Source: Betaproteobacteria bacterium HGW-Betaproteobacteria-9
Lineage (GTDB): Bacteria; Pseudomonadota; Gammaproteobacteria; Burkholderiales; Burkholderiaceae_C
Direction: 5' to 3'
NCBI GenBank assembly: GCA_002842215.1
Contig: PHCC01000012.1
Location: 1 to 64,000 of the forward strand
DNA length: 64,000 nucleotides
Positions 4,903-26,822 of this stretch are shown here, piece by piece. The notes beneath the pieces were generated by a model. That model had not been told where the DNA came from. It made no database searches and was given only the letters and a program-made list of their open reading frames with translations. Position 1 is the stretch's first letter; every line of letters starts with the position of its first letter. A program made the translations under genes and the position numbers.

Positions 4903-5427
4903 ATGAAAACAAAGCTCACTTTCAGCGCTCATGAACTCGGACTTGATGACGTTTTCACCCGACTTTGCAGCCTCCAAACAGAGGCCAGACGAGCCAATGC
5001 CCTGCGCTTCCTCATGTCCCAGCTCATGGAATCTCGCCACATCCCCCAATGGTTTCACGACATCACCCCCCAGACCCCACCCACAGTCGCTCAATTCACG
5101 ATCCGCTTGGAGCTGCGCGAGGACGATCCAGCCCTCGCCAGGGTCCTCCAATGGTTGCGGACCAACCAGGCAGACACCTACCCGCGCCAGATCAAGCACC
5201 TGATCTTGATGGCATCCACCCGCCCTGAGACCACGCAGGCCACCCATGCGTCGAGCACCCCGAGCCCTATTGCGCAGCAACCAGTCATTTCTCCCAAGCC
5301 TGCCCCGGTGGCGGTGACTAGCCCGGCGCCGACCAAAGATGCATCAGGCCTGACCTCAGACACCCGCTCCGTCTTTCTTAACGCTTCCTCATTCTTTCAA
5401 TCTACCTTCGAACCCACCCAACCATGA
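4903..5427 (+). CDS. Hypothetical protein upstream of ParM-like gene (possible adaptor)
   Basis: ORF in frame from MKTKLTFSAHELGLDD; Pro/Ala-rich C-terminus; position between repeats and actin-like gene. Confidence 0.6.
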   Translation: MKTKLTFSAHELGLDDVFTRLCSLQTEARRANALRFLMSQLMESRHIPQWFHDITPQTPPTVAQFTIRLELREDDPALARVLQWLRTNQADTYPRQIKHLILMASTRPETTQATHASSTPSPIAQQPVISPKPAPVAVTSPAPTKDASGLTSDTRSVFLNASSFFQSTFEPTQP

Positions 5428-6482
5428 AACCGCGCTCCATCATCTCCATCGACGTCGGCTACGGCAACACCAAGCTGGTCTACAGACACCTCATCGACGC
5501 ACAAGGCAACTCCCGCTGGTCGGAGTTCTGCTTCCCATCGGTGGCACCCAGGGCCATGGCCGAAGACATGATCTTGGGCGTCAACAACCCCAACCGCATC
5601 CTGATTGAGGTCGACGGCCAGAACTACTTCGCCGGCCTCAAGCCCACCAGCGCCAGCGTTCCCCGCACGCTCTCGCCCGACTACATCGGCTCCGTCACGC
5701 ACGAGGTTTTGTTGCGCACAGCGATCCACATCGCGATGCGCGAGGCCGGTCATTTCCAGTCCGAAATCGACCTGCTGGTCCTGGGCCTGCCCGTCTCCGG
5801 TTTTCAGAGCAACGCCAAACGGCTGCACGAGATCGCGATGCGCCCGCGCACGGTTCCCGTGCCGGTGGGCATGAACCATCAGTTCGGCGAGGCGCGCTCT
5901 ATTGAGGTCAAGGCCAAGGATTGCATGATCTTCCCGCAACCCTATGGTGGCTTTCGATTGGCCGCCGACACGCTCACCGAAGACGATCCCATTTTCAAGA
6001 ACGGCATGGTCTCCATGGTGATCGACCCCGGCTATCGAACATTCGACTGGTTCGTCAGTTCTGGCCTGCACCCCGAATTGAACATGAGCGGCAGCTTTGA
6101 TGGTGGCGTCAGCTCGATCCTTCGTGCCGTGAGTTCGAAGCTCGGCTTTGACACCGGCTTTGGAAGCCTCGAATTCGACATGGTGGAACACGGCCTGAAC
6201 ACCGGCACCATCAATCTGGGCCACACCGTCATCGATATGACGCCCTATCGCAAAGTGGCAAACGATGCGGCCGAAAAGGAAGTCTCCGCATTTGTCACCC
6301 GGCTTTCTGCCACCAACGCGAACATCAGCCGGATTTTCCTCACCGGTGGTGGCGCTCATTTCTACGAGGAAGCGCTGCGCAAGCGCTTGCCAGGGTACGA
6401 AATCATCTCGATGGCCAACAGCGTCATGTCCAACGCCCGCGGTTATTGGCTGGCCGGCGCCGACAAGTTCATGAACGCATGA
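5424..6482 (+). CDS. ParM/StbA-like actin-fold ATPase
   Basis: IISIDVGYGNTKLVYRH, MVIDPGYRTFDWFV, RIFLTGGGAHFYEEAL phosphate/adenosine motifs. Confidence 0.78.
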   Translation: MKPRSIISIDVGYGNTKLVYRHLIDAQGNSRWSEFCFPSVAPRAMAEDMILGVNNPNRILIEVDGQNYFAGLKPTSASVPRTLSPDYIGSVTHEVLLRTAIHIAMREAGHFQSEIDLLVLGLPVSGFQSNAKRLHEIAMRPRTVPVPVGMNHQFGEARSIEVKAKDCMIFPQPYGGFRLAADTLTEDDPIFKNGMVSMVIDPGYRTFDWFVSSGLHPELNMSGSFDGGVSSILRAVSSKLGFDTGFGSLEFDMVEHGLNTGTINLGHTVIDMTPYRKVANDAAEKEVSAFVTRLSATNANISRIFLTGGGAHFYEEALRKRLPGYEIISMANSVMSNARGYWLAGADKFMNA

Positions 6483-6921: not shown

Positions 6922-7154
6922 TCCGCCTGCGCTCGCTGGAGATCCCCGCGCTGGTTTCCAGCGTTGAGCGAACGGGCGCTGGTGCGCACCGGGCGGCAGG
7001 TTAAACCCGTTCACAACGGACAAGAACTACCAGCGGGTTGGCAACTGATATCTGTCAATCAAAAAGCCGGCACGTTCGATGCCAGCAGCTTGACCAGTTC
7101 CATGAAATTCCCACTCGGCGCCGTACCCATGCGCACAAATTAGATATTCTTCAT

Positions 7155-9164
7155 ATGACCACGAATTTGAACCCGAATGAGAAATCGAACGTCAAGCAGG
7201 AAAACCTGTTCGTTGATTTGATCAAGTTTTCTCCTTATCTGATGATGATTGTCTTGCTCTACACAGTAGTTGCACACATCGATTCTATTTCCGGTCTGAA
7301 CGGGAAAATGCTCTCTTCGGCGAAGGCACAGGACTTCACGAGGTTTGTGTCCTCAGTCAACGGCCTCCTGCTCGTGCTACACTTGATTTCCAACCGGATT
7401 TTTCACTCGAGATGGGCCTACTACGCCTGCAAGATCAGCCTCTATCTCTCCAGTGCCGGCCTGCTGACGGTGATCTACTATCTGATCAAAAGCGGCTCGG
7501 TCACATTAAGCAATGGCTGGCCATATGGGCTATTGGCCATTGGGCTGGCCTTGATGGTGATTTTTTCATTCTCGACCTACTTTGAGACAAAACCACCGCG
7601 CCTCGCCGTGGCGGCAGATGGCTCCATGCCCTCGAACGCGGATCTGCACACAGACCTGTTCACCATGAGCAAGCCCAAAACCCGCTTCGCAGACATCCTG
7701 GGCATGGACGAACTCAAGGCTCGGCTGCTGGCGGCCGGCAACGAGGTGATGGCGAGCAAGGGAAAGAAAGGCGCGCGCAATGGCATCTTGCTGCACGGCG
7801 ACCCCGGCAACGGCAAGACCGCATTTGCGCAAGCACTGGCCGGCGAACTCAAGGTCAAATTTCTCAGCATCTCCTATTCGGACACCGCGACGATGTGGGT
7901 GGGCGAGCAGTCTCGCAAACTCAAGTCGGCGGTCGAGCAAGCGAAGCGCAACGCGCCATGCGTGTTCTTCATCGACGAGATCGACTCGTTCATCAGCCAG
8001 CGCTCCAGCGAGCAAAACAACCGGCCTGAATCGAAAGACATCGTGAACCTGATGCTCACCGAACTGGTGGAGTTGCGAAATCACAAGGTGCTGGTGATGG
8101 CGGCGACCAACTTGCTCGAATCCTTGGATACTGCGGCCATCCGTGAAGGGAGGTTCGACTTCAAGATCGAAGTCACGCCCCCAGACGCCAAGGCGCGTCT
8201 CGGGTTGCTGCGCCTTGGACTACAACGCAACCTGCCCAAGGCCACCGTGGATGGTCAGGTGGTCGAGCGCGTGGCGGATCGCTGGAACGGGTTTTCTGTG
8301 AAGCGCATCCTGGCCGTGACCGAGGAACTGCCCTCTTACCTTCAGCGCCACCAGCGCCCGCTCAGTGCGAACCTGGCCTTCGAGGACTTCATGGGCGCCC
8401 TGCGCTCGGTCCAAGGGCGCAAAGGCGTCGAGCTGGAGAAGGTTCGCCCATTGGGCGACCTCATCCTGGGTGAAGAACTGCGCGATGCGCTCGACGGGAT
8501 CGTTGCCCGCCTGCAGGACCCCGATGGCACTGAACGACGTGGCGGAACCTTGCCGACCGGACTGCTGTTCTACGGCCCCCCGGGCACAGGCAAGACCGCC
8601 GTGGCCAAGGCGATGTGCAAGGAAGTCGGCTGGGCATTTCTCACCACCACCGGCGCCGAGCTTTCGCGCGACCCGGAAGCCTTGGGAAAGCTCTACAAGA
8701 ACGCGATGGAGATCCGGCCGTGTCTCATCTTCATCGATGAGGCCGACGAACTGCTGCTCAGCCGCCAGCATTCGACCCACACCGCGTCGACCAACAAGCT
8801 CCTGTCCATCATGGACGGCGCCTCAGACCGCGTGCACGACGTCGTCTGGATTGCCGCGACGAACCATCCCGAGCAAATCGACTCGGCATTGTTGCGCGGT
8901 GGCCGATTCACCGAAAAGCTGGAATTCGAACTGCCTCAAGCCAGCGCCATCTCAGCGCACATCGAAAAATGGCTGAAAACGCGCTCCATTCGACTTGAAT
9001 ATTCTTTGGCACATGGCGATATTGCCCACAGCCTACGCGATCAGAGCATTGCCAACATTGAGGCGGTGCTGCAAGCGGCCGTCAACCGGGCCATTGGCCG
9101 CAAGGAACCGACCGTAACTTTGCAAGCAATAGACATTGAACGTGCTGCAAAGCAGGTAATATAG
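7155..9164 (+). CDS. Membrane-anchored tandem AAA+ ATPase
   Basis: N-terminal hydrophobic segments, then two AAA modules: GDPGNGKT/FFIDEID and GPPGTGKT/IFIDEAD with IAATN and RGGRF. Confidence 0.85.
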   Translation: MTTNLNPNEKSNVKQENLFVDLIKFSPYLMMIVLLYTVVAHIDSISGLNGKMLSSAKAQDFTRFVSSVNGLLLVLHLISNRIFHSRWAYYACKISLYLSSAGLLTVIYYLIKSGSVTLSNGWPYGLLAIGLALMVIFSFSTYFETKPPRLAVAADGSMPSNADLHTDLFTMSKPKTRFADILGMDELKARLLAAGNEVMASKGKKGARNGILLHGDPGNGKTAFAQALAGELKVKFLSISYSDTATMWVGEQSRKLKSAVEQAKRNAPCVFFIDEIDSFISQRSSEQNNRPESKDIVNLMLTELVELRNHKVLVMAATNLLESLDTAAIREGRFDFKIEVTPPDAKARLGLLRLGLQRNLPKATVDGQVVERVADRWNGFSVKRILAVTEELPSYLQRHQRPLSANLAFEDFMGALRSVQGRKGVELEKVRPLGDLILGEELRDALDGIVARLQDPDGTERRGGTLPTGLLFYGPPGTGKTAVAKAMCKEVGWAFLTTTGAELSRDPEALGKLYKNAMEIRPCLIFIDEADELLLSRQHSTHTASTNKLLSIMDGASDRVHDVVWIAATNHPEQIDSALLRGGRFTEKLEFELPQASAISAHIEKWLKTRSIRLEYSLAHGDIAHSLRDQSIANIEAVLQAAVNRAIGRKEPTVTLQAIDIERAAKQVI

Positions 9165-9196: not shown

Positions 9197-9502
9197 ATGA
9201 CCGCTACCTATTCTGAACTGATGGCCCAAGCTCAAGCGCTGATGGCCCAAGCCGAAGCCGCCCGCAAGGCCGAATTATCCACCGTGATCGCCGACATCAA
9301 AGCCAAGATGCGCGAGATGGGCATCACGATTGATGATCTGGGTGAGGGCAAATCCAAATCTTCGGGCAAAGCAAAGCCGAAAGCCGAGCCGAAGTTCCGC
9401 GGCCCCAACGGCGAACTCTGGAGTGGTGGTCCTGGCCGCAAACCTCAGTGGGTAGTGGACGCTGTTGCCGCTGGCAAGAACATCGAAGAATTCCGGATCT
9501 GA
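9197..9502 (+). CDS. H-NS-family nucleoid-associated protein
   Basis: C-terminal FRGPNGELWSGGPGRKPQWVVDAVAAGKNIEEFRI resembles H-NS DNA-binding motif. Confidence 0.8.
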   Translation: MTATYSELMAQAQALMAQAEAARKAELSTVIADIKAKMREMGITIDDLGEGKSKSSGKAKPKAEPKFRGPNGELWSGGPGRKPQWVVDAVAAGKNIEEFRI

Positions 9503-10763: not shown

Positions 10764-11864
10764 ATGATGTCCCGACATCGCGACACACCAGATGGCTTAC
10801 CCTATCGATTGTATGAACGCAAAGGCGTGAGGATATATAGCATTGCTTACAAGCAACCAAACAATCGCTGGGCCTTCCGCTACTCATGCAGTGCCGAGGA
10901 CCGAACAAGGATTGCAGAGCTTCGAGCCAAAGCCATTTCGGAGGCAGCCGGTTTCGGGTTGGGTTCAATCGCAGTTGGTTCGACCACTGAGCTAATTGAA
11001 GCGTGGTTTGATCACCAAATGCGACTGCCATCCAACGACGCCCACCGTCGCGCGGATTCCACCCTCGCAGAGAATCAGCGCGAAGCGCGGAACCTGAAGA
11101 AAGCTTTCGGTCACATGTGGCCTGAAGAGATCACCAAGACAGATGGCTATGCATATCTCGATGCCTGTGCCCAGGCCTCAAGGCCCGCAAAGGGAAACAA
11201 GGAAATCGCGCTGTTGCACCTGATCCTCGAGCATGGGGTTCGGATCGGACGATTGAACGCCAACCCGCTCCAGGGTCTGCGCAAGCTCAAGACCAAAAGT
11301 GAAAAACGCTACGTCACAGATGAAGAGCTGAACCTGGCGGTGGACGTTGGTCGCATCAAAGGCGGCACTCGTCACATCGTTGCCATGGCCCTAAAGACAG
11401 CCTACCTCTGCACAAGGAGGTCGGTCGAAGTACGCGCCATCATGCGCGACTCGATCACTGACGAAGGCGTGCTCTGGTATGACGGCAAGAACAAGGACAA
11501 GCCCCCGGTGCTGATCGAATGGACACCTGAGCTGCGAACCACGATTGCGGAAGTTCAACAGATCAAACGGCACCATGTCGCGGGAACACTCTACCTCTTC
11601 GGCAACATGAAAGGGCAAAGGTACACCAAAGGTGGATGGAAAGCCGTGCTGGATGACCTGATGGCCGACTGCCTGGTCGAGGCCAAAAATCGCAACATGC
11701 CATTCAGACGCTTCAGCTTGCAAGAATGTCGACCTAAAGGCGCATCGGACAAGATGTCAGCGGGACACACCGATGCGAAGGATGCTCTCGGCCACACCAC
11801 AGACCGGCTTCTCGGGCAGGTCTATGACCGTCGCCTCGTGAAGAAAGCAACGCCTGTACGATGA
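10764..11864 (+). CDS. Tyrosine-type site-specific integrase (element 1)
   Basis: 366-aa ORF with phage-integrase-like N-terminus and ALKTAYLCTRRSVEVRAI...ALGHTTDRLLGQVYDR C-terminus; adjacent to att repeat. Confidence 0.82.
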   Translation: MMSRHRDTPDGLPYRLYERKGVRIYSIAYKQPNNRWAFRYSCSAEDRTRIAELRAKAISEAAGFGLGSIAVGSTTELIEAWFDHQMRLPSNDAHRRADSTLAENQREARNLKKAFGHMWPEEITKTDGYAYLDACAQASRPAKGNKEIALLHLILEHGVRIGRLNANPLQGLRKLKTKSEKRYVTDEELNLAVDVGRIKGGTRHIVAMALKTAYLCTRRSVEVRAIMRDSITDEGVLWYDGKNKDKPPVLIEWTPELRTTIAEVQQIKRHHVAGTLYLFGNMKGQRYTKGGWKAVLDDLMADCLVEAKNRNMPFRRFSLQECRPKGASDKMSAGHTDAKDALGHTTDRLLGQVYDRRLVKKATPVR

Positions 11865-11935: not shown

Positions 11936-11983
11936 TGGCGGAGTGGACGGGGCTCGAACCCGCGACCCCCGGCGTGACAGGCC
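11936..11983 (-). repeat. attachment-site repeat: 48-bp copy of tRNA-Asp 3' part
   Basis: TGGCGGAGTGGACGGGGCTCGAACCCGCGACCCCCGGCGTGACAGGCC identical to 27317-27364; tRNA homology ends abruptly after it. Confidence 0.92.
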
Positions 11984-12084: not shown

Positions 12085-13242
12085 ATGGCAGTAATCACGC
12101 AGAGAGAGAATGGAAAGTGGCAGGCAAAGATTCGGCGCCAGGGCACCCCTGCGCAGAGCAAGACTTTCGTCACGAAGGCTGACGCAGAAAAATGGGCGCG
12201 CTCGGTCGAGCGCGACATTGATACAGGCGCATTCATCCCCACCGACGACGCTGCGCGACTCACGTTCGCTGCAGCAACCGAGAGGTATCGACGTGAGGTG
12301 CTTCCTAACCTTCGCGGCCGGATGCAGGTTGAAACCCGACTGACTCGACTTCTTGAGACGTTTGGAAAGTACTCGCTGTCATCCATAAGCGGCGCGATGG
12401 TCGCCAGCTACCGCGATGAGCGCCTGCGATCGGTCTCCCCCCAGACTGTCGTACATGAGCTTGGCCAGATCCAGCAGATATTCAAAAGGGCGACGCACGA
12501 ATGGGGCATCCAATTACCGAGAGGCCTGCCAACCCTGCTTGTAAGTAAGCCGAGACTCCCTCCCGGCAGGGATAGACGCTTAGAGACCGGCGAAGAGGCT
12601 CTCCTACTTGATCAAGCATCGCAGTTAGCGCAACCCTGGGTGAGGGCAATTATCATTTTGGCAACAGAGACAGCGGGTAGGCAAAGTGAGCTTCTTTCAC
12701 TGACATGGAGCCAGGTGGACCTTCAGCGCCGTGTCGCCCGGCTTTTTGGCAAGGACGGCGCCATCACCAAGAATGGAGCACCTTTTCGAGATGTTCCGCT
12801 ATCCTCCCGGGCAATTGCCACATTGGAAGCACTTCCGCGCAACCTCAAGGGACCCGTCTTCCCTATTTCCCAGAATGCGCTTCAACTAAGCTGGGAACGC
12901 CTATGCAAATCCGCAAGAAAAAAACACCTGCTCACCCGGTTGAAATCAATGCTCGAAGGAGACGGAATGTCGGCAGAGGAGGCGGAAAGAGAGGTCAAGG
13001 CACTGGTATTTAAAAAGCGAGTACCGACCTCACTTACAACATCCCACTGGGCTGAATTGAAACTTCACGACAAGATGCTGACAGATCTTCATTTTCACGA
13101 CCTCCGACACGAGGCAACAAGTCGACTGGCGGATCGACTTCAATTGCACGAGCTGATGAAAGTCACAGGTCATAAAACTTCCGCGATGGTTTCAAGGTAC
13201 TACCACCCTAGGGCGGAAGATCTTGCTGCAAAACTAGCATAG
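12085..13242 (+). CDS. Tyrosine recombinase/integrase (element 2)
   Basis: GRQSELLSLTWSQVDL, HFHDLRHEATSRL, VTGHKTSAMVSRYYHP: R-HxxR-H-Y catalytic set. Confidence 0.92.
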   Translation: MAVITQRENGKWQAKIRRQGTPAQSKTFVTKADAEKWARSVERDIDTGAFIPTDDAARLTFAAATERYRREVLPNLRGRMQVETRLTRLLETFGKYSLSSISGAMVASYRDERLRSVSPQTVVHELGQIQQIFKRATHEWGIQLPRGLPTLLVSKPRLPPGRDRRLETGEEALLLDQASQLAQPWVRAIIILATETAGRQSELLSLTWSQVDLQRRVARLFGKDGAITKNGAPFRDVPLSSRAIATLEALPRNLKGPVFPISQNALQLSWERLCKSARKKHLLTRLKSMLEGDGMSAEEAEREVKALVFKKRVPTSLTTSHWAELKLHDKMLTDLHFHDLRHEATSRLADRLQLHELMKVTGHKTSAMVSRYYHPRAEDLAAKLA

Positions 13243-13462
13243 TGATCTCGCTTGATGCAGATTGGGTCGGAACCTGTAGTTCCTTCTCCTGAGTTGTGCT
13301 GTCACCACAGTGGCCCAAGGAGACCTAAAAATCGAACATTCCTATTGCTTTTTCCGTCACTAAGGGGAGAATACAGCGGTCCGCATTTATTTGCTGTCCG
13401 AGCTGACGTTTCAGTCATTGGTTTTTCTGTGCCGAGGTACAGATGCCCAAAACACATTGGGC

Positions 13463-13832
13463 TGCGGTTCCCAGACCGCAACTGGAGTCAGCTCTCGCTG
13501 AACCAGATGAAGCACACAAGACCTTGTGATGCCCTTCATAAAAGTAGTCACACACTGTGACTTCTTGCAAGCGCAATAGCTTGCATAGCTCCATACCAAG
13601 ACAACCGAAGAAAAAGCTGAACTCAGCACGTGCGTCACTGCGCACGACCGCAAGGTCGTCGCAGTGACGCACCGCTAAAAAGCAACTTTTTCGGCGTGCG
13701 TCAACGCATCTGGAGCCAGCTGTCGCAGTGACAGCGAAAAGTTTGGTCGTTCGATTGAACGCAAGTCGCGGGCTAGCCGGCCCGCCAGGTGACCTCTCGC
13801 AACAGCGAGCAGCCTCCCCAAGGGGAAAGCTG
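13463..13832 (+). other. Hairpin-dense non-coding tract, candidate structured ncRNA or ssDNA-active site
   Basis: At least ten short perfect stem-loops in about 370 bp, including 13630-13672 with a GCAA loop. Confidence 0.5.
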
Positions 13833-13862
13833 TGAGTCCCATGAACCTCAACCTTTTGGGTG

Positions 13863-13918
13863 CCGGGGTGACTTGCGTTTTACCTCCCTCTTGCGGGGGA
13901 GGGATTGCAGCACCCCGG
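13863..13918. other. Nested inverted repeat upstream of second recombinase
   Basis: CCGGGGTG (13863-13870) / CACCCCGG (13911-13918) enclosing CCTCCC...GGGAGG. Confidence 0.6.
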
Positions 13919-13942
13919 AATATTTTTAGGCTGACCAAAAAT

Positions 13943-14821
13943 ATGAACAGAAACGAAATCAATAGAATTAACCAGCATACTGGTGGCTCAACCCTAACCA
14001 AAAAAGGTCGAGAATCAACGCTATTGGCCTTCGCTCAAACACTTAGAGCGACTCTCAATATTCAAGTTCGAAGCTTTGGAGATCTCAAAATTGAACATAT
14101 TCGACGCTATGTCGAATATACACGTGCGCAAGGAGTTTCCAATCGCACACTGCAAAACCAGATGTCCCGCCTGCGCACTGCCCTTCGGGTATGCGGGCGG
14201 GACAAATTCGCAAACGACAAGAAAATTTCCAACAAATCAATTGGAATTGGGCGCGCATCGCGGAACGGAACTCACGTGCCATTCAATTCGATAGAAGAGA
14301 ATAAACGAATCGGTAGCATTTCCGATCCAGGTGTTCAGGCGGCAGCCAGACTACAAAGAGAAATGGGCCTTCGAATGCAAGAAGCAATTCGGTCCATCGA
14401 CAGTCTTTCAACTTGGATGAAAGAACTTCAAAGTCATGGACTTGTGACTATAATTCACGGCACCAAAGGGGGTCGACGTCGAATCGTTGATTTCAATGTT
14501 GGAAATGCCAAATGTACTGCCATCAATGCCGTCCAAAATGCAATTGAAGTTTTACAAAAACAGAGCGAACTGGTGGCGAGCAAGAGTCTGCAAGGAGCAT
14601 GCCGAAAGTACCAACGTGAGCTTGCAGCAGTTGGGTTCAGCGGAGCACAAGCCTCTCACTCACTGAGATGCAGCTGGGCACAAGATCAGTATTTTCGACA
14701 CCTGACCGCTACCCAAGACAATAGAATGGAGTCATTGTCTCGGCTTTCACTCGATTTGGGGCATGGTGACGGTCGTGGCAGATACTGTCGTCAGGTTTAT
14801 CTGAAAAACTCCGCAAAATGA
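13943..14821 (+). CDS. Second tyrosine recombinase (integrase-domain protein)
   Basis: QREMGLRMQEAIR, ASHSLRCSWAQ, LGHGDGRGRYCRQVYL match Arg / HxxR / LGH...Tyr pattern. Confidence 0.78.
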   Translation: MNRNEINRINQHTGGSTLTKKGRESTLLAFAQTLRATLNIQVRSFGDLKIEHIRRYVEYTRAQGVSNRTLQNQMSRLRTALRVCGRDKFANDKKISNKSIGIGRASRNGTHVPFNSIEENKRIGSISDPGVQAAARLQREMGLRMQEAIRSIDSLSTWMKELQSHGLVTIIHGTKGGRRRIVDFNVGNAKCTAINAVQNAIEVLQKQSELVASKSLQGACRKYQRELAAVGFSGAQASHSLRCSWAQDQYFRHLTATQDNRMESLSRLSLDLGHGDGRGRYCRQVYLKNSAK

Positions 14822-16629: not shown

Positions 16630-18348
16630 ATGAACCTCACCGAACAACAGTTCTTCGACGACCTCGAAAAGAAACTCTGGACCGCCGCCAACAAGCTGCT
16701 GCCCAGCCTGGACGCCGCCGTTTACAAGCACATCGTGCTCGGCCTGCTGTTCATCAAGTACGTGTCCGACGCGTTTGAAGAGCGCCAGAACGAACTCAAG
16801 GCCCAGTTCACCGACCCGGCGCACGACTACTACATGAACCCGGCCGAGTACCCCGGCACCTTTGAGGCCGACCTGGCCGCCGAGCTGGAGGTGCGCGACT
16901 ACTACACCGAGAAGAACGTCTTCTGGGTGCCCAGCGAAGCGCGCTGGCCCATGCTGGTGGCGTGCGCCCAGCTGCTGCCCGGCACCGCCCTGCCCTGGAA
17001 CCAGGCGGGCAAGAACGAGCCCGAAAAGATGCGCACCGTTGGCTGGCTCATCGACAACGCCATGGAAGCCATCGAGCGCGAGAACGAGAAGAAGCTCAAG
17101 AACGTGCTCAACAAGAATTTCGCCAACACTCAAATCGAGTCGTACAAGCTGGCCGAACTCATGGCCCTGTTCTCCGACACCAACTTCCACGCCACAGAAT
17201 ACAAGGGCCAGCCGCTCAGCCTCAAGGCCAAGGACATCCTGGGCCACATCTACGAGTACTTCCTTGGCCAGTTCGCGCTGGCCGAAGGCAAGAAGGGCGG
17301 CCAGTACTACACGCCCAAAGCCATCGTCAGCCTCATCGTCAACATGCTCCAGCCCTTCAAGGGCCGCGTGTACGACCCGGCCATGGGCTCCGGCGGCTTC
17401 TTCGTGCAGAGCGAAGAGTTCATCGAACAGCACAGCGGCAAAGTGGCCCAAGGCTCGGGCAACAAAGCCAGCGGCCAGATCAGCGTCTACGGGCAGGAGA
17501 GCAACCCCACCACCTGGAAGCTAGCGGCCATGAACATGGCCATCCGCGGCATCGACTTCAACTTTGGCGGCGGCCACGCCGACACCCTGCTCAACGATCT
17601 GCATCCAGACCTGCGGGCCGACTACGTCATGGCCAACCCCCCCTTCAACATGAAGGAATGGTGGAACGCCAAGTTGGAAAAAGACCCACGCTGGATCGCC
17701 GGCACGCCGCCCGCGGGCAATGCCAACTTCGCCTGGCTGCAGCACATGCTCTACCACCTGGCACCCACCGGCAGCATGGCCCTGCTGCTGGCCAACGGCT
17801 CCATGAGCAGCAACACCAACAACGAAGGCGACATCCGCAAGAAGCTGGTGGAAGACGACTACTTCGAATGCATGGTCGCCCTGCCCGGCCAGCTCTTCAC
17901 CAACACGCAGATCCCGGCCTGTATCTGGTTCCTGACCCGCGACAAGGCCAACGGCTTCAATCTCAACAAGAAAAAGCGCGACCGGCGCAAGCAGTTCCTC
18001 TTCATCGACGCGCGCCAGATGGGCTACATGAAAGACCGCGTGCTGCGCGACTTCACCCAGGCCGACATCGACAAGATCGCCGACACCTTCCATGCCTGGC
18101 AGCAAGGCGACGAGTATGGGGACGTCAAAGGCTTCTGCTACTCAGCCAGCCTGGAGGACATCCGCAAACACGAACACGTGTTGACACCGGGGCGCTATGT
18201 GGGCGCCGAAGACCAGGAAGAAGACGCCGAAGCCTTCGCAGACAAGATGGCGCGACTGGCGGCGCAGCTGGCGGAGCAGTTCGCTGAAAGCGCGAAACTG
18301 GAGGAGCAGATCAAAACGAATCTGGCGAGGTTGGGATATGACCTCTGA
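16630..18348 (+). CDS. hsdM: Type I restriction-modification system methyltransferase subunit HsdM
   Basis: N-terminal LTEQQFFDDLEKKLWTAANKLLPSLDAAVYKHIVLGLLFIKYVSDAFEERQ; DPAMGSGGFF; NPPFNMKEWW. Confidence 0.96.
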   Translation: MNLTEQQFFDDLEKKLWTAANKLLPSLDAAVYKHIVLGLLFIKYVSDAFEERQNELKAQFTDPAHDYYMNPAEYPGTFEADLAAELEVRDYYTEKNVFWVPSEARWPMLVACAQLLPGTALPWNQAGKNEPEKMRTVGWLIDNAMEAIERENEKKLKNVLNKNFANTQIESYKLAELMALFSDTNFHATEYKGQPLSLKAKDILGHIYEYFLGQFALAEGKKGGQYYTPKAIVSLIVNMLQPFKGRVYDPAMGSGGFFVQSEEFIEQHSGKVAQGSGNKASGQISVYGQESNPTTWKLAAMNMAIRGIDFNFGGGHADTLLNDLHPDLRADYVMANPPFNMKEWWNAKLEKDPRWIAGTPPAGNANFAWLQHMLYHLAPTGSMALLLANGSMSSNTNNEGDIRKKLVEDDYFECMVALPGQLFTNTQIPACIWFLTRDKANGFNLNKKKRDRRKQFLFIDARQMGYMKDRVLRDFTQADIDKIADTFHAWQQGDEYGDVKGFCYSASLEDIRKHEHVLTPGRYVGAEDQEEDAEAFADKMARLAAQLAEQFAESAKLEEQIKTNLARLGYDL

Positions 18349-19660
18349 CGTTCAATACAGACCGCTAAACGAGGTGGCTCAGCTTTCGAGCGGCAAGCGC
18401 CCTATATCAGTTATCAAGGAGAGGACAGCGTCACACGGAGTGCCCGTTATTGGGGGCGGCGGTACGTCGGGATTCACTGAGCACCACCTCTTCACTGAAG
18501 ACATCCTGATAACTGGCCGTGTTGGCACCCTAGGAAAACTGTTCGCACCGAAAGGTCCGTGCTGGCCTTCTGACAACGCCTTGGTTATCCGACCAAGGGA
18601 CGGTCTCGTGCATTTTCAGTACTTGAAATATGCATTGGGAAGCGTGATCCAAGCAGCCGTCGGATTGAACCGCGGCGCGGCCAACCCGCTTGTCACCCAA
18701 ACTGACCTGGGTCGACTCGAAATTCCCGTTCCAGACAAGACCGTTCAAAAACAGATCGCGATGGTGTTAGCAAGGCTTGACGACAGAATCGAAGTTAACC
18801 ACCGCATCAACGAAACCCTTGAAGCCATGGCGCAAGCCATCTTCAAATCGTGGTTTGTCGATTTCGACTCCGTCAAAGCCAAGATCGCCGCCAATGTCGA
18901 AGGCGGCGACCCGCTGCGCGCTGCGATGACCGCCATCAGCGGCAAGCCCGACGCCCAACTCGATACCCTGCCCCCCGACCAGTTCGCCACCCTCGCCACC
19001 ACCGCCGCGCTATTTCCGGATGAGATGGAGGACTCGGCGTTTGGGGTGATTCCGAAAGGGTGGAATGTCGGAACTTTCAAAGACTGTTGCCTGCGCGTAG
19101 AAAGTGGCGGCACGCCAAGCAGGAAGGAGCCCGCATTTTGGGGAGGCTCGATACCGTGGCTGACTTCCGGGGAAGTCAGAGATGTCGTGGTGCTGGATAC
19201 AAAGGAAAAAATCTCGCGCGCGGGTCTTGATGCGAGCAACGCCAAGTTGTGGCCGGCGATGTCTACCGTAGTAGCCATGTACGGGGCAACAGCTGGGCAA
19301 GTCTGTCTGATAGCCAATGAAATGACGGCGAATCAAGCCTGCTGCGCCTTGATTCCCAAGGCGGCATTCAAGTCTTTTATCTTCATCGCAGCACGCCAGG
19401 CAGTTCAACAGCTCGCAGAGAAAGCATCCGGTTCGGCGCAACAAAACTTGAACAAGTCACTGGTTGAAAACCACGTTCATGTGATCCCAGATGACGGTGT
19501 CGCTGAAAGATTTGAACTGGCGACAACTTCGCTGCTGCAAAAGTGGGTTCTGAATCAAAGGGAGGCAGCTACGTTGGCTCAACTCCGCGACAACCTTCTG
19601 CCCAAACTCCTGTCTGGCGAACTGCAAGTCCAAAGCAGTGAGATGGAGGCCGCAGCGTGA
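18338..19660 (+). CDS. hsdS: Type I restriction-modification specificity subunit HsdS
   Basis: Two target-recognition halves (VPVIGGGGTSGFTEHHL..., SGGTPSRKEPAFWGGSIPWLTSGEV...); ATG overlaps hsdM stop. Confidence 0.93.
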   Translation: MTSDVQYRPLNEVAQLSSGKRPISVIKERTASHGVPVIGGGGTSGFTEHHLFTEDILITGRVGTLGKLFAPKGPCWPSDNALVIRPRDGLVHFQYLKYALGSVIQAAVGLNRGAANPLVTQTDLGRLEIPVPDKTVQKQIAMVLARLDDRIEVNHRINETLEAMAQAIFKSWFVDFDSVKAKIAANVEGGDPLRAAMTAISGKPDAQLDTLPPDQFATLATTAALFPDEMEDSAFGVIPKGWNVGTFKDCCLRVESGGTPSRKEPAFWGGSIPWLTSGEVRDVVVLDTKEKISRAGLDASNAKLWPAMSTVVAMYGATAGQVCLIANEMTANQACCALIPKAAFKSFIFIAARQAVQQLAEKASGSAQQNLNKSLVENHVHVIPDDGVAERFELATTSLLQKWVLNQREAATLAQLRDNLLPKLLSGELQVQSSEMEAAA

Positions 19661-20940
19661 GCGAGACCCTCCAACCACCAACAACCGCGCAAGAGTCACC
19701 AGCCTCCAGCGACTACTTCTCGCCGATCCCGCTCTGGAACGCTGAAGGGCAGACCAAGCGCTTCGAGGTGATGGCCGACCGGCTGGGGGACCGCATCCCG
19801 GTAACGCGCCTGGAGAGCTGGCGCCAGTTCTCCGAGTTGCTGGAGAGTGACTTTTTCCGCCGGCAAGATTTGGTGTTTCGCGGCCATCGCCGTCACGACT
19901 GGGGACTGATGCCCACGCTGGGCAGGGTGACGACGGACGGCATCGTCACCAAGCCACTGGCTGATGCGCAACTCGAACGGTTCAAGCGGGCTGTGCGGGG
20001 CCGGTTGCACGACACCGCCTTGCTGGAAGACGACGACGAGATGTGGTCTGTAGGGCAGCACCATGGTTTGATGACGCCGCTGCTCGACTGGACCTATTCG
20101 CCATACGTGGCCCTGTTCTTCGCCTTTCAGAAAGAGGACCCGAAGAAAGAACAGGACAACCCATACCGCGCCGTGTACGTGCTCGACAAGCGCTTCCTGG
20201 CCAACCCGGCCATCGTGGCTGAAACAGGCATTCGAGTGGTCGAGCCAAGGCTGGACCACTATGGCAGGCTGGTGAACCAGGCCGGCTTGTTCACCTACTC
20301 GCCTCCTGACGCGACGATCGAGAACAAGCTGACCAATGTGCTGGCTGACGACGAAGGCTTCACCGATGAAGACCTTCGCAACGCTTCGGAGGATGAACAG
20401 CCCGGGCTGCTGGCGCGCTACATCTGCAAGATCTACATCCGCAACGACGACAGGGACAACTGCGTGCAGCACTTGCGGCGAATGAACGTGCACCACGCCA
20501 GCTTGTTCCCAGACCTGATTGGTGCCTCGGACTACTGCAACATCCTGGCCAGTGAAGTGGAGCAGGCGGCCGAGATCGAGCGGCAGGCCAGGCGGATCGC
20601 TGCTGCTGGATCGACGTCAATTGAGGCCCCCGTAGAAGCCCCGGTCGAGGCCCCAGCGATTGGACTGGCCAACACCGACAGCATCGAATTCTTGCTGCGG
20701 GCACCGCCCGCAGCCCAGCAGGTGGAGCCTGGTCGCGTTGGCTTGATCGCGCTGGAGCTGGCCAAGGCCTTGGTTGAAAACCAAGTGGTGGATTGGGACA
20801 AGCGTGACGCGGTGCAGGCGCGGCTGCGCAATGCAATTCGGGTGGTGCTGCGCCGTTATGGTTATCCGTCGGTGGCTCGCGATGCGGTGGCCGAGCAGGT
20901 GTTGGCTTTGGCCAAACAGACGCCTGCCGAGCCAGCGTAG
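19657..20940 (+). CDS. FRG-domain protein with HsdR-like C-terminal module
   Basis: QDLVFRGHRRHDWGLMPTLGR FRG motif; GTGA overlap with hsdS stop; C-terminal 360-427 aligns to the HsdR C-terminus. Confidence 0.85.
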   Translation: MSETLQPPTTAQESPASSDYFSPIPLWNAEGQTKRFEVMADRLGDRIPVTRLESWRQFSELLESDFFRRQDLVFRGHRRHDWGLMPTLGRVTTDGIVTKPLADAQLERFKRAVRGRLHDTALLEDDDEMWSVGQHHGLMTPLLDWTYSPYVALFFAFQKEDPKKEQDNPYRAVYVLDKRFLANPAIVAETGIRVVEPRLDHYGRLVNQAGLFTYSPPDATIENKLTNVLADDEGFTDEDLRNASEDEQPGLLARYICKIYIRNDDRDNCVQHLRRMNVHHASLFPDLIGASDYCNILASEVEQAAEIERQARRIAAAGSTSIEAPVEAPVEAPAIGLANTDSIEFLLRAPPAAQQVEPGRVGLIALELAKALVENQVVDWDKRDAVQARLRNAIRVVLRRYGYPSVARDAVAEQVLALAKQTPAEPA

Positions 20941-20975
20941 CTACCTGCCATGCACAAGCGGGGGAGAACAAGATC

Positions 20976-21974
20976 ATGAACGCGACCCGGCATACACCGG
21001 CTTTCAAACCTCTCAAACCCTGGATCTCTTTTGCCGACCAGCTTGCCCAACTGGAGCAGCGCGGCATGGAGGTGGAGAACAAGGTTGCGGCTCTGGACTA
21101 CCTGGAACGCATCGGTTACTACCGGCTCAGCGGCTACTGGTATCCGATGCGGGCCATTGACATAGCTGCCTCGCTCGCACAGGGGCAGGCTGTGCGTTCC
21201 AACGCATTCGTTGGCGGCACGCGGTTTGAAGATGTTGTGCACCTGTATGTGTTCGACAAAAAGCTGCGCCTGCTGGCGCTGGATGCACTGGAGCGCATCG
21301 AATTGGCGGTGCGGGTGGATGTGGCGCATTTGCTGGGGCAGCGCGACCCGAAGGCGCATGAGAACCCTGCTTGTCTGCACGGCAACTTTGCCAAGAAGGT
21401 GATCACCAAAGGGCCGGATACAGGGAAGACGGAGCACCAGGTGTGGCTGTCCAAATTCCAGGCGCTGCTGCAGCGGGCTCGCAAGGAGCCTTTTGTGCAA
21501 CACCACAAGCAGCAGTACGGCGCGTTGCCGATCTGGGCCGCCATCGAGGTGTGGGACTTTGGCCTGCTTTCCAAACTGTTCGCAGGCATGAAGCACGCCG
21601 ACCAGCAGGCGGTTGCCGCCATTTATGGCGCCCCTGATGGTCAGACCTTTGCTCAGTGGTTGCGGAGCTTGAACTTCATCCGCAATGTGTCGGCCCACCA
21701 CAGCCGTTTGTGGAATCTGAACGTGGTGGAGCGGGCTTCATTACCTGCGGACTGGCCTGCCGCGCTGGATAACTCCCGCCCGTTCTTCTATTTCTGCCTG
21801 ATGCAGCAATTGCTCAACGTGATCTGCCCCAATTCAGCCTGGGGGCAACGTGTGACGGAGCTGTTGGAGGGAGGTTTCCCGAACACGCAGAACGGGGTGT
21901 TGTCGCTGGACGACTTGGGGGCCGTGGTGGGCTGGGCAGAAACCATGCCGTGGAAAAAGCAGGCCCCCAAATGA
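20976..21974 (+). CDS. Abi_2-family (AbiD/AbiF-like) abortive infection protein with HEPN-type motif
   Basis: FKPLKPWISFADQLAQLEQRGMEV...YLERIGYYRLSGYWYPMR and LNFIRNVSAHHSRLWN (Rx4-6H). Confidence 0.88.
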   Translation: MNATRHTPAFKPLKPWISFADQLAQLEQRGMEVENKVAALDYLERIGYYRLSGYWYPMRAIDIAASLAQGQAVRSNAFVGGTRFEDVVHLYVFDKKLRLLALDALERIELAVRVDVAHLLGQRDPKAHENPACLHGNFAKKVITKGPDTGKTEHQVWLSKFQALLQRARKEPFVQHHKQQYGALPIWAAIEVWDFGLLSKLFAGMKHADQQAVAAIYGAPDGQTFAQWLRSLNFIRNVSAHHSRLWNLNVVERASLPADWPAALDNSRPFFYFCLMQQLLNVICPNSAWGQRVTELLEGGFPNTQNGVLSLDDLGAVVGWAETMPWKKQAPK

Positions 21975-22100
21975 AAACCGACGCGTACACAGAGTGCAGA
22001 GGCGTCGGGCGTATTGCATCTAATTCTAACGATATCGGGTACCCAGGTCAAACACTGTTAGACCGAAGGCCGGCAGGACCCATGCCGTGAAAGAGCACAC

Positions 22101-25100
22101 ATGCTGAACGAACAACAACTCGAAGACCTGTGCATCGGCTGGTTCCAGCAGACGGGCTGGCAGTTCGTCCACGGGCCGGACATTGCGCCAGAAGGCGACC
22201 GGCCGGAACGGGCGGACTTTCGGCAGGTGATCCTGCACGATCGGTTGCTGGCGGCACTGGCACGCATCAACCCGCAGATTCCTGCCGCTGCGCTGGAGCA
22301 GGCGGTGCACACCTTGCACACCGTCAGCGAGCCGCTGCAGGTGGTGCGCAACCGGGCGGTGCATCGGTTGCTGCTGGGCGGGGTGGACGTGAGCTTTGCC
22401 AACCCTGACGGCGAAGGCAAGAAGAGTGACTTGGTCAGCCTGATCGACTTTGCGAACCCGACCAACAATCAGTTCCTGGTGGTCAACCAGTTCACCGTGG
22501 CGGGTACCAAGCAGCCGCGCCGGCCGGACTTGGTGCTGTTCGTCAACGGCCTGCCGCTGGCGGTGATCGAGCTCAAGAACCCGGCCAACGAGCAAACCGA
22601 CATCTGGGACGCGTTCAACCAGTTGCAAACCTACAAGGACGAAACGGCCGATTTGTTCAATTGCAACACGGCGCTGGTGGTCAGCGACGGGTTCACCGCC
22701 CGGGTGGGCGCGCTCACGGCCGATGCCGAACGCATGCTGCCCTGGCGCACGATTGCCAACGAAGACGACCGCCCCCGTTTGCAGATGGAGTTGGAGACGC
22801 TGGTGCGCGGCTTCTTCAAGCCCGAGCTGTTTCTGGACTATGTGCGGCACTTTGTGCTGTTCGAGCAGGACGGCGACACCATTGTCAAGAAGATCGCGGG
22901 CTATCACCAGTTCCACGCGGTGCGCGAAGCGGTGCGCGCCACGGTGATCGCGGCGCAGGACGCGGACAAGGGCTTGCTGGAGGTGCACGAAGAACGCGCC
23001 ACCTACGGCAAGGAGGTGAAGCCTGGTTCGCGCAAGGCGGGTGTGGTGTGGCACACGCAGGGTTCGGGCAAGAGCATCACCATGGCCTGCTACGCAGGCA
23101 AGCTGCTTCAACATCCCGAAATGAAGAACCCAACCCTGGTGGTGGTGACCGACCGCAACGACCTTGACGGCCAGCTCTTCGGCACCTTCAGTGCGGCCAG
23201 CGACTTGCTGCGGACCACACCTATGCAGGCCAAAGACCGCGACGAACTGCGCGAGATGCTGGCCTCGCGCCAAGCGGGCGGCATCATCTTCACCACGGTG
23301 CAGAAGTTCGCGCTGCTCGACGGAGAAGAGGCGCACCCGCTGCTGTCGGGTCGTTCGAACATTGTGGTGATGTCGGACGAGGCGCACCGCAGTCAGTACG
23401 GCATGAAGGGCCGACTGGACACCACGACAGGTAAGTACGTTTATGGCTACGCCAAGCACCTGCGCGACGCACTGAAGAACGCCACCTTCATTGGCTTCAC
23501 CGGTACGCCCATCGCATTGGAAGACAAGGACACCCGCGCGGTGTTTGGGGACTACGTCAGCATCTACGACATCCAGGACGCGGTGGACGACGGCGCGACG
23601 GTGCCCATTTTTTACGAGAGCCGGCTGGCCAAGCTTGACGTGAAGCAGGCCGAGATTGACGCGCTCAATGTCTTGGTGGATGAAGTGGTCGAAGACGAAG
23701 AAGACTTCGCCAGCCGCGAGAAGACCAAGAGCGAATGGGCCGCGCTTGAAAAGCTGGTGGGCGCCGAGCCGCGTCTGCAGCAGGTGGCCAAAGACCTGGT
23801 GCAGCACTTTGACGTGCGCATCAGCACCATCGACGGCAAGGCCATGATCGTGTGCATGAGCCGCGACATCTGCGCTCAGCTTTACAGCGCCATCGTGGCG
23901 TTGCGCCCGGACTGGCACAACGCCGACCCGGAGCAGGGCGCCATCAAGATCGTGATGACCGGCTCAGCAGCCGACAAGCCGTTGTTGCAGCCGCACCTGT
24001 ACACGCACAAGGTGAAGAAGCGGCTGGAAAAGCGCTTCAAGGACCCGAAGGATGGGCTGAAGCTGGTGATCGTGCGCGACATGTGGCTGACCGGATTTGA
24101 CGCGCCGTCGTGCCACACCATGTATGTGGACAAGCCCATGAAGGGCCACAACCTGATGCAGGCGATTGCACGGGTGAACCGGGTGTTCAAGAACAAGCCC
24201 GGTGGCCTGGTGGTGGACTACATCGGCATTGCCAGCGAGCTGAAGGCCGCGCTGAAAACCTACACCGAGTCCAAAGGCAAGGGCGACCCCACACACAACG
24301 CTGCCGAGGCGCTGGCCGTGCTGCTGGAGAAGATGGACATCGTGCGCGGGTTGATGCACGGCTTTGACTACAGCGCCTTCGAGACCGACGCGGTGCCGCT
24401 GCTGGTGCCTGCAGCGAACCACCTGCTGGGCCTGAAAGACGGGAAGACCCGTTTTCTGGATGTGATGACGGCCGTGAGCAAGGCGTTTTCGCTCTGCGGC
24501 ACGCTGGACGACGCCGCCGCGATGCGCAGAGAGATCGCCTTCTTTGCCGCCATCAAGGCAGCTATCACCAAGTTCACCACGGTGGACAAGAAGCGCACCA
24601 CCGAAGACAAGAACAGCGCGCTCAAGCAGATCCTGGACAACGCCATCGTGGCCGATGGCGTGGCAGACATCTTTGCGCTGGCCGGGCTGGACAAGCCCAA
24701 CATCGGTTTGCTGTCGGACGAGTTCCTGGAAGACGTACGGCAGATGAAGACGAAGAATCTGGCCGTTGAGCTGTTGGAGAAACTGCTGCGCGACGAGATC
24801 AGGGCGCGCGCGCGCAACAACGTGGTGCAGGAAAAGAAATACGGCGACCGCCTGCTGGAGACCTTGCGCAAGTACCACAACCGCGCCATCGAAACCGCAC
24901 AGGTGATCGAAGAGTTGATTCAGATGGCCAAGGAGTTCCAGGCGGTGCTGGAACGCGAGTCCGCGCTGGGCCTGAGTCCGGACGAGATCGCTTTCTACGA
25001 CGCCTTGGCCAACAACGAAAGCGCGGTGCGCGATCTCGGCGACGACATCCTGAAAAAGATCGCCGTTGAAATCACCGAAAAACTGAAAGCCAGCACCACG

Positions 25101-25265
25101 GTGGACTGGCAGGTGCGCGAGAGCGTGAGGGCTCGCCTACGCATACTGGTGCGCCGCACTTTGCAGAAGTGGAAGTACCCTCCTGACCAGCAACCGGGGG
25201 CCGTGGAGCTGGTATTGAAACAGGCTGAGTCGCTTTCGAACGATTGGTCTAGCAACTTGCATTGA
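22101..25265 (+). CDS. hsdR: Type I restriction enzyme subunit HsdR
   Basis: RRPDLVLFVNGLPLAVIELKNP nuclease motif; HTQGSGKSITM; SDEAHRSQYG; GFTGTPI. Confidence 0.96.
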   Translation: MLNEQQLEDLCIGWFQQTGWQFVHGPDIAPEGDRPERADFRQVILHDRLLAALARINPQIPAAALEQAVHTLHTVSEPLQVVRNRAVHRLLLGGVDVSFANPDGEGKKSDLVSLIDFANPTNNQFLVVNQFTVAGTKQPRRPDLVLFVNGLPLAVIELKNPANEQTDIWDAFNQLQTYKDETADLFNCNTALVVSDGFTARVGALTADAERMLPWRTIANEDDRPRLQMELETLVRGFFKPELFLDYVRHFVLFEQDGDTIVKKIAGYHQFHAVREAVRATVIAAQDADKGLLEVHEERATYGKEVKPGSRKAGVVWHTQGSGKSITMACYAGKLLQHPEMKNPTLVVVTDRNDLDGQLFGTFSAASDLLRTTPMQAKDRDELREMLASRQAGGIIFTTVQKFALLDGEEAHPLLSGRSNIVVMSDEAHRSQYGMKGRLDTTTGKYVYGYAKHLRDALKNATFIGFTGTPIALEDKDTRAVFGDYVSIYDIQDAVDDGATVPIFYESRLAKLDVKQAEIDALNVLVDEVVEDEEDFASREKTKSEWAALEKLVGAEPRLQQVAKDLVQHFDVRISTIDGKAMIVCMSRDICAQLYSAIVALRPDWHNADPEQGAIKIVMTGSAADKPLLQPHLYTHKVKKRLEKRFKDPKDGLKLVIVRDMWLTGFDAPSCHTMYVDKPMKGHNLMQAIARVNRVFKNKPGGLVVDYIGIASELKAALKTYTESKGKGDPTHNAAEALAVLLEKMDIVRGLMHGFDYSAFETDAVPLLVPAANHLLGLKDGKTRFLDVMTAVSKAFSLCGTLDDAAAMRREIAFFAAIKAAITKFTTVDKKRTTEDKNSALKQILDNAIVADGVADIFALAGLDKPNIGLLSDEFLEDVRQMKTKNLAVELLEKLLRDEIRARARNNVVQEKKYGDRLLETLRKYHNRAIETAQVIEELIQMAKEFQAVLERESALGLSPDEIAFYDALANNESAVRDLGDDILKKIAVEITEKLKASTTVDWQVRESVRARLRILVRRTLQKWKYPPDQQPGAVELVLKQAESLSNDWSSNLH

Positions 25266-25620: not shown

Positions 25621-26475
25621 TCATTGCCTCACTTTGAGCAACCCGGCCGCATCGATTTCCCAGAAAAAATCCTGGCCATGGTCCCGCCTGGCCTTGGTCA
25701 CAGATCGCAGGGACCTGACCAACGTCTGCTTAAAACTGCGAAGGTCCTTAGTCTGGCTGCCCGAGAGCCATTTCACAGTTTCAATTCGAAGAGCGTGCGC
25801 CTCTGGCTGGCTGCTGTAGTACCCATGCAGCCACTTTGCCAGTGGCTTTCCATGCAGGTCTGCACGGACCTCCGAATGTAAAGAGGCAAAGCCACCAGGC
25901 GCGAAGAGCTTCACAAGATCAGGATCGATGCGCAAGCTCCATGCATCACCTGCGCACGGCCGTTTTGCACTGGACAACAGCGAACCGATGAACCTGGCCC
26001 CCCCTTGATCAATATCTAGGACTGCGCCAGCCAGTCTTTTCAAGCTTGCCTCGAGCTCAGCATAGCTCCTCCCGTCATCACCTTTCCTTTGGGCAAGCAG
26101 CAGTCGCCGAGCAGGCGCAACTACGACGCCGCCAAGCGGTTGGCCGCGCGCTGTGTCCAGGACAGCCAAAAGCACGTCAAGGTCCTGTTGGTCTAAAAGC
26201 TGGCCAGTGAAGCGCACTCGCATGTTTGAAAGGCCTGCAATCTGCTGGTCCCTCACAAACTCGCGCGCACCACCTTTTTTTCTTCGGTCTGCCATCGCTG
26301 CAAACAGGGCTGTGCGTAAGGCAACGTGTGGTGCAAGTTTTCGTCCCTGGTTTACCCCAGGCAAACTGACCTGACTAACCTGCCCCTCTGCGATCTGGAC
26401 TTCCTGCCTGATTTGAGTCAGCTCAACTTGCACCCTGATGCGTGCGAGGGCTTCATCTATGGATCGACTTGTCAT
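25621..26475 (-). CDS. TrfA-like plasmid replication initiator
   Basis: QLLDQQDLDVLLAVLDTARGQPL...GRSYAELEASLKRLAGAVLDI...WSLRIDPDLVKLFAPGG...KPLAKWLHGYYSSQPEAHALRIETVKWLSGS...KQTLVRSLRSV resembles TrfA family. Confidence 0.72.
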   Translation of the reverse strand: MTSRSIDEALARIRVQVELTQIRQEVQIAEGQVSQVSLPGVNQGRKLAPHVALRTALFAAMADRRKKGGAREFVRDQQIAGLSNMRVRFTGQLLDQQDLDVLLAVLDTARGQPLGGVVVAPARRLLLAQRKGDDGRSYAELEASLKRLAGAVLDIDQGGARFIGSLLSSAKRPCAGDAWSLRIDPDLVKLFAPGGFASLHSEVRADLHGKPLAKWLHGYYSSQPEAHALRIETVKWLSGSQTKDLRSFKQTLVRSLRSVTKARRDHGQDFFWEIDAAGLLKVRQ

Positions 26476-26477
26476 TG

Positions 26478-26822
26478 TCAGACTACCTGACCATGCTCTG
26501 TCTCCATTGGCTGCTTTCGTGGACGCCCTCGTCCGCGTTTGATAGGTAATTGCAGGACCGGAACTGACTGTGTTTGTGTCACCACTTTGTCCGTGGCACT
26601 CCCAAACGCCCACAGCCTGACCTCCGCGGCACGGAAGGTAATTTTTCGACCAAGCAAAACTGGCTGTGGAAATCCAGGTGGTGGCCTATGGATCCACCTT
26701 CTGACCGAGTTGAGCGGCTGGCCCAGGAATTCGGCAAGATGACCCAAATCCCAAAGTGCTGGGCCGGTTGATTCAGTTGAAGGGCGACTAGGGGGAGAAA
26801 GATTTTTTGAAAGAGAAGACAC
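26478..26822 (-). CDS. AlpA/MerR-type helix-turn-helix protein (putative excisionase/regulator)
   Basis: LWDLGHLAEFLGQPLNSVRRWIHRPPPGFPQPVLLGRKITFRAAEVRLW; stop 2 nt before the TrfA-like start. Confidence 0.6.
   Translation of the reverse strand: MSSLSKNLSPPSRPSTESTGPALWDLGHLAEFLGQPLNSVRRWIHRPPPGFPQPVLLGRKITFRAAEVRLWAFGSATDKVVTQTQSVPVLQLPIKRGRGRPRKQPMETEHGQVV

Follow-up and report, generated by a model that had tools for sequence, protein, structure and literature searches.

A hairpin-rich tract upstream of a PF12835 recombinase gene in a betaproteobacterial island: a candidate origin of transfer with a diverged EFASI RNA

The window analysed here, 64,000 nucleotides of contig PHCC01000012.1 from Betaproteobacteria bacterium HGW-Betaproteobacteria-9, contains a 15.4-kb island whose bounds are given by a perfect direct repeat of 48 bp from the 3′ end of tRNA-Asp, the two copies (11936-11983 and 27317-27364) being 100% identical. 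An integrase gene is followed by a tract packed with hairpins, a recombinase gene encoding PF12834 and PF12835 domains, two unassigned ORFs, a type I restriction-modification (R-M) cargo and a TrfA-like replication gene. The features are as follows.

11936-11983, minus strand: attL, the 48-bp copy of the tRNA-Asp 3′ end at the left border of the island (100% repeat of 27317-27364)
12085-13242, plus strand: island integrase, a tyrosine recombinase (Pfam PF00589), adjoining attL
13463-13585, plus strand: five perfect hairpins, about where Enterobacterales loci have STAXI
13630-13672, plus strand: conserved 43-nt hairpin GTGCGTCACTGCG...CGCAGTGACGCAC, candidate oriT core or recombinase recognition site
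13677-13761, plus strand: three short hairpins (hairpin scan) joining the conserved hairpin to the EFASI-like RNA
13754-13881, plus strand: probable diverged EFASI RNA (RF02957) with the conserved single strand ACCTCAAC (covariance model, structure, spacing)
13943-14821, plus strand: Integrase_1-type tyrosine recombinase of 292 aa, candidate atypical relaxase (PF12834 and PF12835)
16630-25265, plus strand: cargo of type I R-M genes (hsdM, hsdS, hsdR) with FRG-domain and Abi_2 genes
25621-26613, minus strand: TrfA-like replication initiator (PF07042, E 5e-7)
27317-27364, minus strand: attR inside an intact tRNA-Asp gene (27317-27393; tRNA call and repeat), the right border of the island

The main ORFs between the att repeats yielded neither a T4SS gene nor a known relaxase gene. 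With tRNA att repeats, an integrase of its own and no T4SS gene among the main ORFs scanned, the island has the make-up of an integrative mobilisable element, and the presence of conjugative coupling protein (T4CP) and TraI_2 relaxase genes on other contigs of the host genome makes helper elements plausible. Within the cargo, the FRG-domain and Abi_2 genes sit between hsdS and hsdR, and the C-terminus of the FRG protein has a match to PF11867, the C-terminal domain of HsdR, and looks like a derivative of it. The TrfA-like gene may allow the island to replicate once excised, like SGI1.

The tract had been described in a first-pass annotation as a chain of perfect hairpins, and this description is borne out by the sequence. 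Stems are present at 13463 (TGCGGT-n6-ACCGCA), 13488 (TCAGC-TCTC-GCTGA), 13546 (AGTCACA-CAC-TGTGACT), 13566 (TGCAAGC-n6-GCTTGCA), 13677 (AAAAAG-CAA-CTTTTT), 13719 (GCTGTC-n5-GACAGC), 13748 (CGTTC-GATT-GAACG), 13768 (GCGGGC-n6-GCCCGC), 13796 (CTCGC-AACA-GCGAG) and 13810 (CAGC..CCCC-AA-GGGG..GCTG), together with the 43-nt hairpin at 13630-13672 and its inner ACGACC-GCAA-GGTCGT. The stem at 13515 is also in place, but its proposed form, CACAAG-AC-CTTGTG, would leave a 2-nt loop, and the realistic form is CACAA-GACC-TTGTG. Between 13460 and 13835 there are 12 perfect hairpins with a stem of at least 5 and a loop of 3-8, whereas 200 dinucleotide shuffles averaged 2.1 and reached 7 at most; for stems of at least 6 the count is eight, where the shuffles averaged 0.6 and reached no more than 3, and hairpin density across the whole 64-kb window peaks in the tract. 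The segment 13460-13920 folds well beyond shuffled controls as RNA of either strand (z = -8.7 for plus, -8.9 for minus) and as single-stranded DNA (z = -10.6), its observed folding energy being reached by none of the shuffles. The absence of an encoded protein, also proposed earlier, is upheld: homologues of the downstream gene align only from ATG 13943, so that the mechanical ORF from 13832 is overlong at its 5′ end, the tract stops before the gene, and a protein-coding reading of the tract is ruled out.

At Rfam gathering thresholds the tract gave zero matches. A scan covering the sigma-70 type only found no sigma-70-like promoter in it, and no terminator-like site was found on its plus strand. 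The host genome yielded no second full copy, the sole match being that of the palindromic 43-nt hairpin with itself. No nucleotide relatives were found in plasmids and E. coli, and homology was therefore traced through the protein.

The recombinase encoded at 13943-14821 matches PF12835 (E 1e-26; 94.1 bits against a cut-off of 23) and, towards its N-terminus, PF12834 (1.9e-19). The catalytic residues R, K, H, R, H and Y are invariant across 14 homologues, and the protein thus carries the R-K-H-R-H pentad and nucleophile tyrosine by which tyrosine-recombinase-like relaxases are recognised. Proteins of PF12835 (Integrase_1) are annotated as “integrase domain-containing protein”, and no function assigned to the family was found in the literature consulted. 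A profile of the protein against PDB sequences gave no match at E 0.001, and a search for related loci with the window recombinase protein alone found none. Relatives with 35-37% identity are encoded on enterobacterial plasmids, where they are preceded by long, mostly non-coding regions containing Rfam STAXI and/or EFASI. In three Legionella/Legionellaceae loci (L102, L111, L135) the beginning of the PF12835 gene is overlapped by a separate ORF of ~270 aa, which in L111 matches PF12834, and the hairpin lies ~1.3-1.9 kb upstream; this split arrangement recalls the MpsA/MpsB pair of SGI1. Three other PF12835 loci (L181, L182, L190) adjoin DUF927 or primase-helicase (AAA_25/Toprim) genes, neighbours that suggest a replicating-island or satellite lineage with the same module.

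When 13 PF12835 loci were compared side by side, the motif GCGTCACT-n-AGTGACGC, or in L019 a one-base variant, lay upstream of the gene in all 13. The window copy has its core at 13632-13670, where shuffles predict 0 occurrences. The hairpin is placed 5′ of PF12835 genes and co-oriented with them in Enterobacterales, Burkholderiales, Legionella, Vibrio and Thiothrix, at distances from 128 to ~1,860 nt. This association is found from both directions. When the hairpin pattern served as anchor, a PF12835-like gene was present at 28 among the 120 genome-contig matches listed, with 27 of the 28 downstream, co-oriented and within 2 kb, and at 11 of 119 viral-contig loci, all 11 placed in the same way; in total, 38 of 39 gene-linked hairpins among the matches listed are upstream and co-oriented, and scrambled arms gave a PF12835-like gene at 0 of 120 loci. 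Pattern matches without the gene are expected to be mostly chance occurrences. When the gene served as anchor, with no prior on the hairpin, CGTCAC-n-GTGACG was present in 15 of 29 class-level homologue loci, always upstream and nowhere else; the upstream sequence is incomplete in three of the 14 hairpin-negative loci. Scrambled 7-mer arms gave 0 in this test, one scrambled 6-mer gave 3/29 and three other 6-mers gave 0.

Pairing extends beyond the part of the hairpin that was searched for. Across 51 loci, the positions adjoining the searched core are paired in 80-96% of cases and use several kinds of base pair, whereas 200 chance matches show ~50%. Next inwards come positions that pair below chance, after which pairing rises again, so that a 12-bp stem leads into an internal loop and, in many cases, a further stem. 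Symmetric covariation alone could come from a hairpin or from a duplex-DNA site bound by a dimer. The conserved hairpin between STAXI and EFASI is described here, and it is conserved far more widely than EFASI itself.

The 3′ third of the tract matches EFASI at 13754-13881 with 35.1 bits, short of the gathering score of 51.2; the E-value is 4e-5 when 751 b are searched with all families and 0.0015 when 29 kb are searched with 4227 families. Among the 36 consensus pairs 31 are kept, and 15 of these are changed on both sides relative to the consensus, so that the consensus structure is retained and shows compensatory changes. The EFASI-like RNA ends 61 nt before the PF12835 gene, and ACCTCAAC lies ~173 nt from the upstream hairpin, compared with 181-195 nt in gene-linked loci of Xenorhabdus, Photorhabdus and Erwinia. 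Structure and synteny thus argue that the segment is homologous to EFASI despite its sub-threshold score.

EFASI, named for “Enterobacteriaceae, Frequently Around STAXI and Integrases”, is classed as an sRNA by Rfam. STAXI lies several hundred bp upstream of EFASI frequently, if not universally. One report (PMC12370729) gives EFASI no known function and describes RT-PCR work in which EFASI and STAXI RNAs were detected in the vesicles of a single E. coli strain; the authors of STAXI considered a function as single-stranded DNA possible (PMC2864571). In these families (RF02957/RF01728) EFASI sits 3′ of STAXI and 5′ of an integrase gene, and the window locus has its EFASI-like RNA in the corresponding place. 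The locus differs in that EFASI has been described only from Enterobacteriaceae, to which the window genome does not belong, and in that its EFASI is below the cut-off and accompanied by no detectable STAXI (no match in 13250-14000 up to E 2). The hairpins at 13463-13585 matched no Rfam family; judged by position, they could replace STAXI. A search for EFASI in 400 order-level genomes under strict filters gave no match, and its controls gave none either. Burkholderiales plasmids had no EFASI or STAXI match up to E 5; the interval from hairpin to gene holds a conserved structured block of their own, in which 6 sequences give only 5 compensated pairs and the covariation term does not turn out favourable.

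Of the two alternatives offered by the first-pass annotation, a structured RNA and DNA active as a single strand, each thus finds specific support, the former in the 15 compensated pairs of the EFASI-like segment and the latter in the 43-nt hairpin, a cis element that is conserved together with a tyrosine-recombinase gene and has oriT-like features. A single large RNA does not hold: the tract consists of at least two conserved modules and a 5′ hairpin cluster (13463-13585).

The same elements recur apart from the gene. Seven small plasmids of 3-6 kb from Pantoea, Cronobacter, Rahnella and E. coli hold STAXI, hairpin and EFASI in that order, and they have neither a PF12835 recombinase gene nor an annotated relaxase. 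Three of the strains with such orphan units also hold a PF12835 gene on a T4SS-bearing element in the same cell, namely an ICE with a T4SS in E. coli TUM9803 and MPF_G plasmids in P. agglomerans FC61912-B and Pantoea BRR-3P. Downstream of the PF12835 gene on Vibrio pSIO1 (4.9 kb) and on Psychrobacter pA36P2 come a small ORF and a VirD4/TraG coupling-protein gene (PF02534 at 1e-45 and 1e-31, respectively), the PF12835 homologues concerned being just 23-25% identical to the window protein. Antirestriction genes are typical of the leading region beside an oriT, and the locus stands at the head of a block containing genes of this type (ArdA, ArdC-like) in ICEs as well as in MPF_G plasmids. Where the locus occurs in ICEs and plasmids of SPI-7 type, these elements encode in addition a MOB_H-type TraI-domain protein, a UvrD helicase and TraD. 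Small plasmids of Burkholderia, Caballeronia and Vibrio have the hairpin and the PF12835 gene with no annotated TraI, as do B. ubonensis and Thiothrix in the parts of their sequences that were covered.

Two mobilisation systems of the tyrosine-recombinase type offer a model for this layout. In SGI1, where oriT, MpsA, MpsB and sgm-sRNA are each essential for transfer, oriT is followed by the sgm-sRNA core and then by mpsA (PMC6414798, PMC9299015), and three stem-loops of oriT are conserved among its relatives (PMC8409611). The window island likewise is small and integrative, has a replication gene of its own, shows an inverted-repeat-rich region, a structured RNA region and a tyrosine-recombinase-type gene in the same order, and would depend, like SGI1, on a helper T4SS (PMC6414798, PMC9299015, PMC8409611). 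Unlike MpsA, whose core-binding partner MpsB is a separate protein, the window protein combines both domains in one PF12834/PF12835 chain. In pIGRK, oriT lies within the 456 bp before mobK, and MobK, a tyrosine-recombinase-like relaxase, nicks through its tyrosine (PMC8152469); the window locus too has its region rich in inverted repeats just 5′ of the gene, as is common to MobK, MpsA and TcpM. These three proteins are reported to be without a core-binding domain (PMC8152469), whereas the window protein has one, in its N-terminal PF12834, and no EFASI-type RNA was found described for the pIGRK and pCW3 (TcpM) modules. Because of this domain we keep the window module outside the MobK/MpsA/TcpM group; the likeness drawn here is one of layout and of published descriptions.

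We consider it somewhat more probable than an even chance that a small integrative mobilisable island has its mobilisation locus in the tract, which would supply the oriT and the sRNA of a module of the tyrosine-recombinase type. The hairpin GCGTCACT-n-AGTGACGC would be the core of the origin of transfer; by analogy with SGI1 and pIGRK, the PF12834/PF12835 protein would recognise it as a folded (extruded) single strand or as an inverted repeat and nick it via its catalytic tyrosine, acting as an atypical relaxase, and the EFASI RNA may serve as a structured sRNA that helps to assemble the complex, or to dock it, on the coupling protein and T4SS of a helper. This reading draws on the hairpin-gene association found in both anchoring directions, on the pairing beyond the searched core and the variable spacer, on the orphan STAXI-hairpin-EFASI units and the three strains that also hold a PF12835-plus-T4SS element, on the coupling-protein neighbours (pSIO1, pA36P2) and antirestriction-type genes by the locus, on the same layout proven experimentally in SGI1 (PMC6414798, PMC9299015) and pIGRK (PMC8152469), and on the replication gene shared with SGI1 together with the T4CP and TraI_2 genes on other host contigs. 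Counterpoints are the core-binding domain, the low identity of the T4CP-linked homologues, the sub-threshold EFASI score, the TraI-domain protein of SPI-7-type elements, which the hairpin could serve there, and the symmetric covariation, to which a dimer site in duplex DNA could also give rise.

That core-binding domain, together with a full tyrosine-recombinase active site, would also suit a Xer-like or integron-like recombinase acting on the hairpin as a recombination site, in dimer resolution or on an attC-like folded single strand, and the arms of ~12 bp do look like recombinase half-sites, with 6-8 bp left between them at the shortest spacers. We regard this as unlikely, since spacers among the homologues span 10-28 nt, too wide a range for a rigid duplex site; the island borders are other att sites with another integrase, the hairpin lying intact inside; the orphan plasmid units contain STAXI and EFASI besides the arms; and adjoining coupling-protein genes indicate transfer. 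The intact hairpin within an island that has separate att sites also disfavours its reading as an attP or attC-cassette site.

Transfer may also proceed through another enzyme, the locus being an oriT or leading-region entry signal for a helper MOB_H TraI, or an Frpo-kind single-stranded DNA promoter, with the PF12835 protein and EFASI as accessories. SPI-7-type elements with the locus do encode a TraI-domain protein, UvrD helicase and TraD, so that TraI could be the user of the hairpin there; antirestriction-type genes come after the locus, a single-stranded DNA function was raised for STAXI (PMC2864571), and the host genome has TraI_2 genes. However, it is the PF12835 gene that is the constant partner of the hairpin, including on the small Burkholderia, Caballeronia and Vibrio plasmids with no annotated TraI, and the promoter form finds no sigma-70-like match in the window tract; we hold this account to be quite improbable. 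A role as RNA only, either as a trans-acting regulatory sRNA (EFASI) or as the leader of the recombinase gene with the hairpin as part of the RNA, would accord with the Rfam sRNA class, the RT-PCR detection of EFASI and STAXI in one E. coli strain (PMC12370729) and the strong RNA fold. It is very unlikely, given that the hairpin is conserved far beyond EFASI at distances of 128 to ~1,860 nt from the gene and that orphan units are kept on plasmids without a PF12835 gene.

The PF12835 family is linked here to mobility modules and to a hairpin in cis. Failure to recognise a relaxase leaves many islands and plasmids typed as “non-mobilizable”, and 46 of 60 plasmids carrying a PF12835 gene are typed in this way. 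If the gene and hairpin form a mobilisation module, such elements are mobile, and the module could explain the movement of many islands and plasmids in which a transfer enzyme has not been recognised. The orphan hairpin copies would then predict hitch-hiking small plasmids, the Rfam motifs STAXI (2010) and EFASI, so far without known function, would gain a testable role, and the sgm-sRNA of SGI1, essential for mobilisation of that island, would have relatives in kind. We raise more tentatively, as a possibility with less than an even chance, that an RNA-assisted complex for the initiation of conjugation may be widespread. PF12835 recombinases would then make up a major relaxase family, so far overlooked, throughout Gammaproteobacteria (Burkholderiales included), every member having a GCGTCACT-type hairpin for its oriT and, in many lineages, a dedicated structured RNA (EFASI or an equivalent) as a component. 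Small plasmids would parasitise the complex by carrying the STAXI-hairpin-EFASI cis unit only.

Some further observations concern the surroundings of the island. The TraI_2 gene on host contig C22 (23163-23863) is seemingly split into several reading-frame pieces, and the copy on C19 is open. To the left of the island, an integrase-like ORF (10764-11864), identified by reading the sequence and with no Pfam match, stops just before the att copy at 11936 and is preceded by ParM-like (5424-6482), AAA ATPase (7038-9164) and H-NS-like (9197-9502) genes, with which it may make up another element, in tandem at this tRNA-Asp site. At the edge of the window an 88-nt inverted repeat of 92%, with arms at 1-88 and 1447-1534, resembles a transposon-sized unit.
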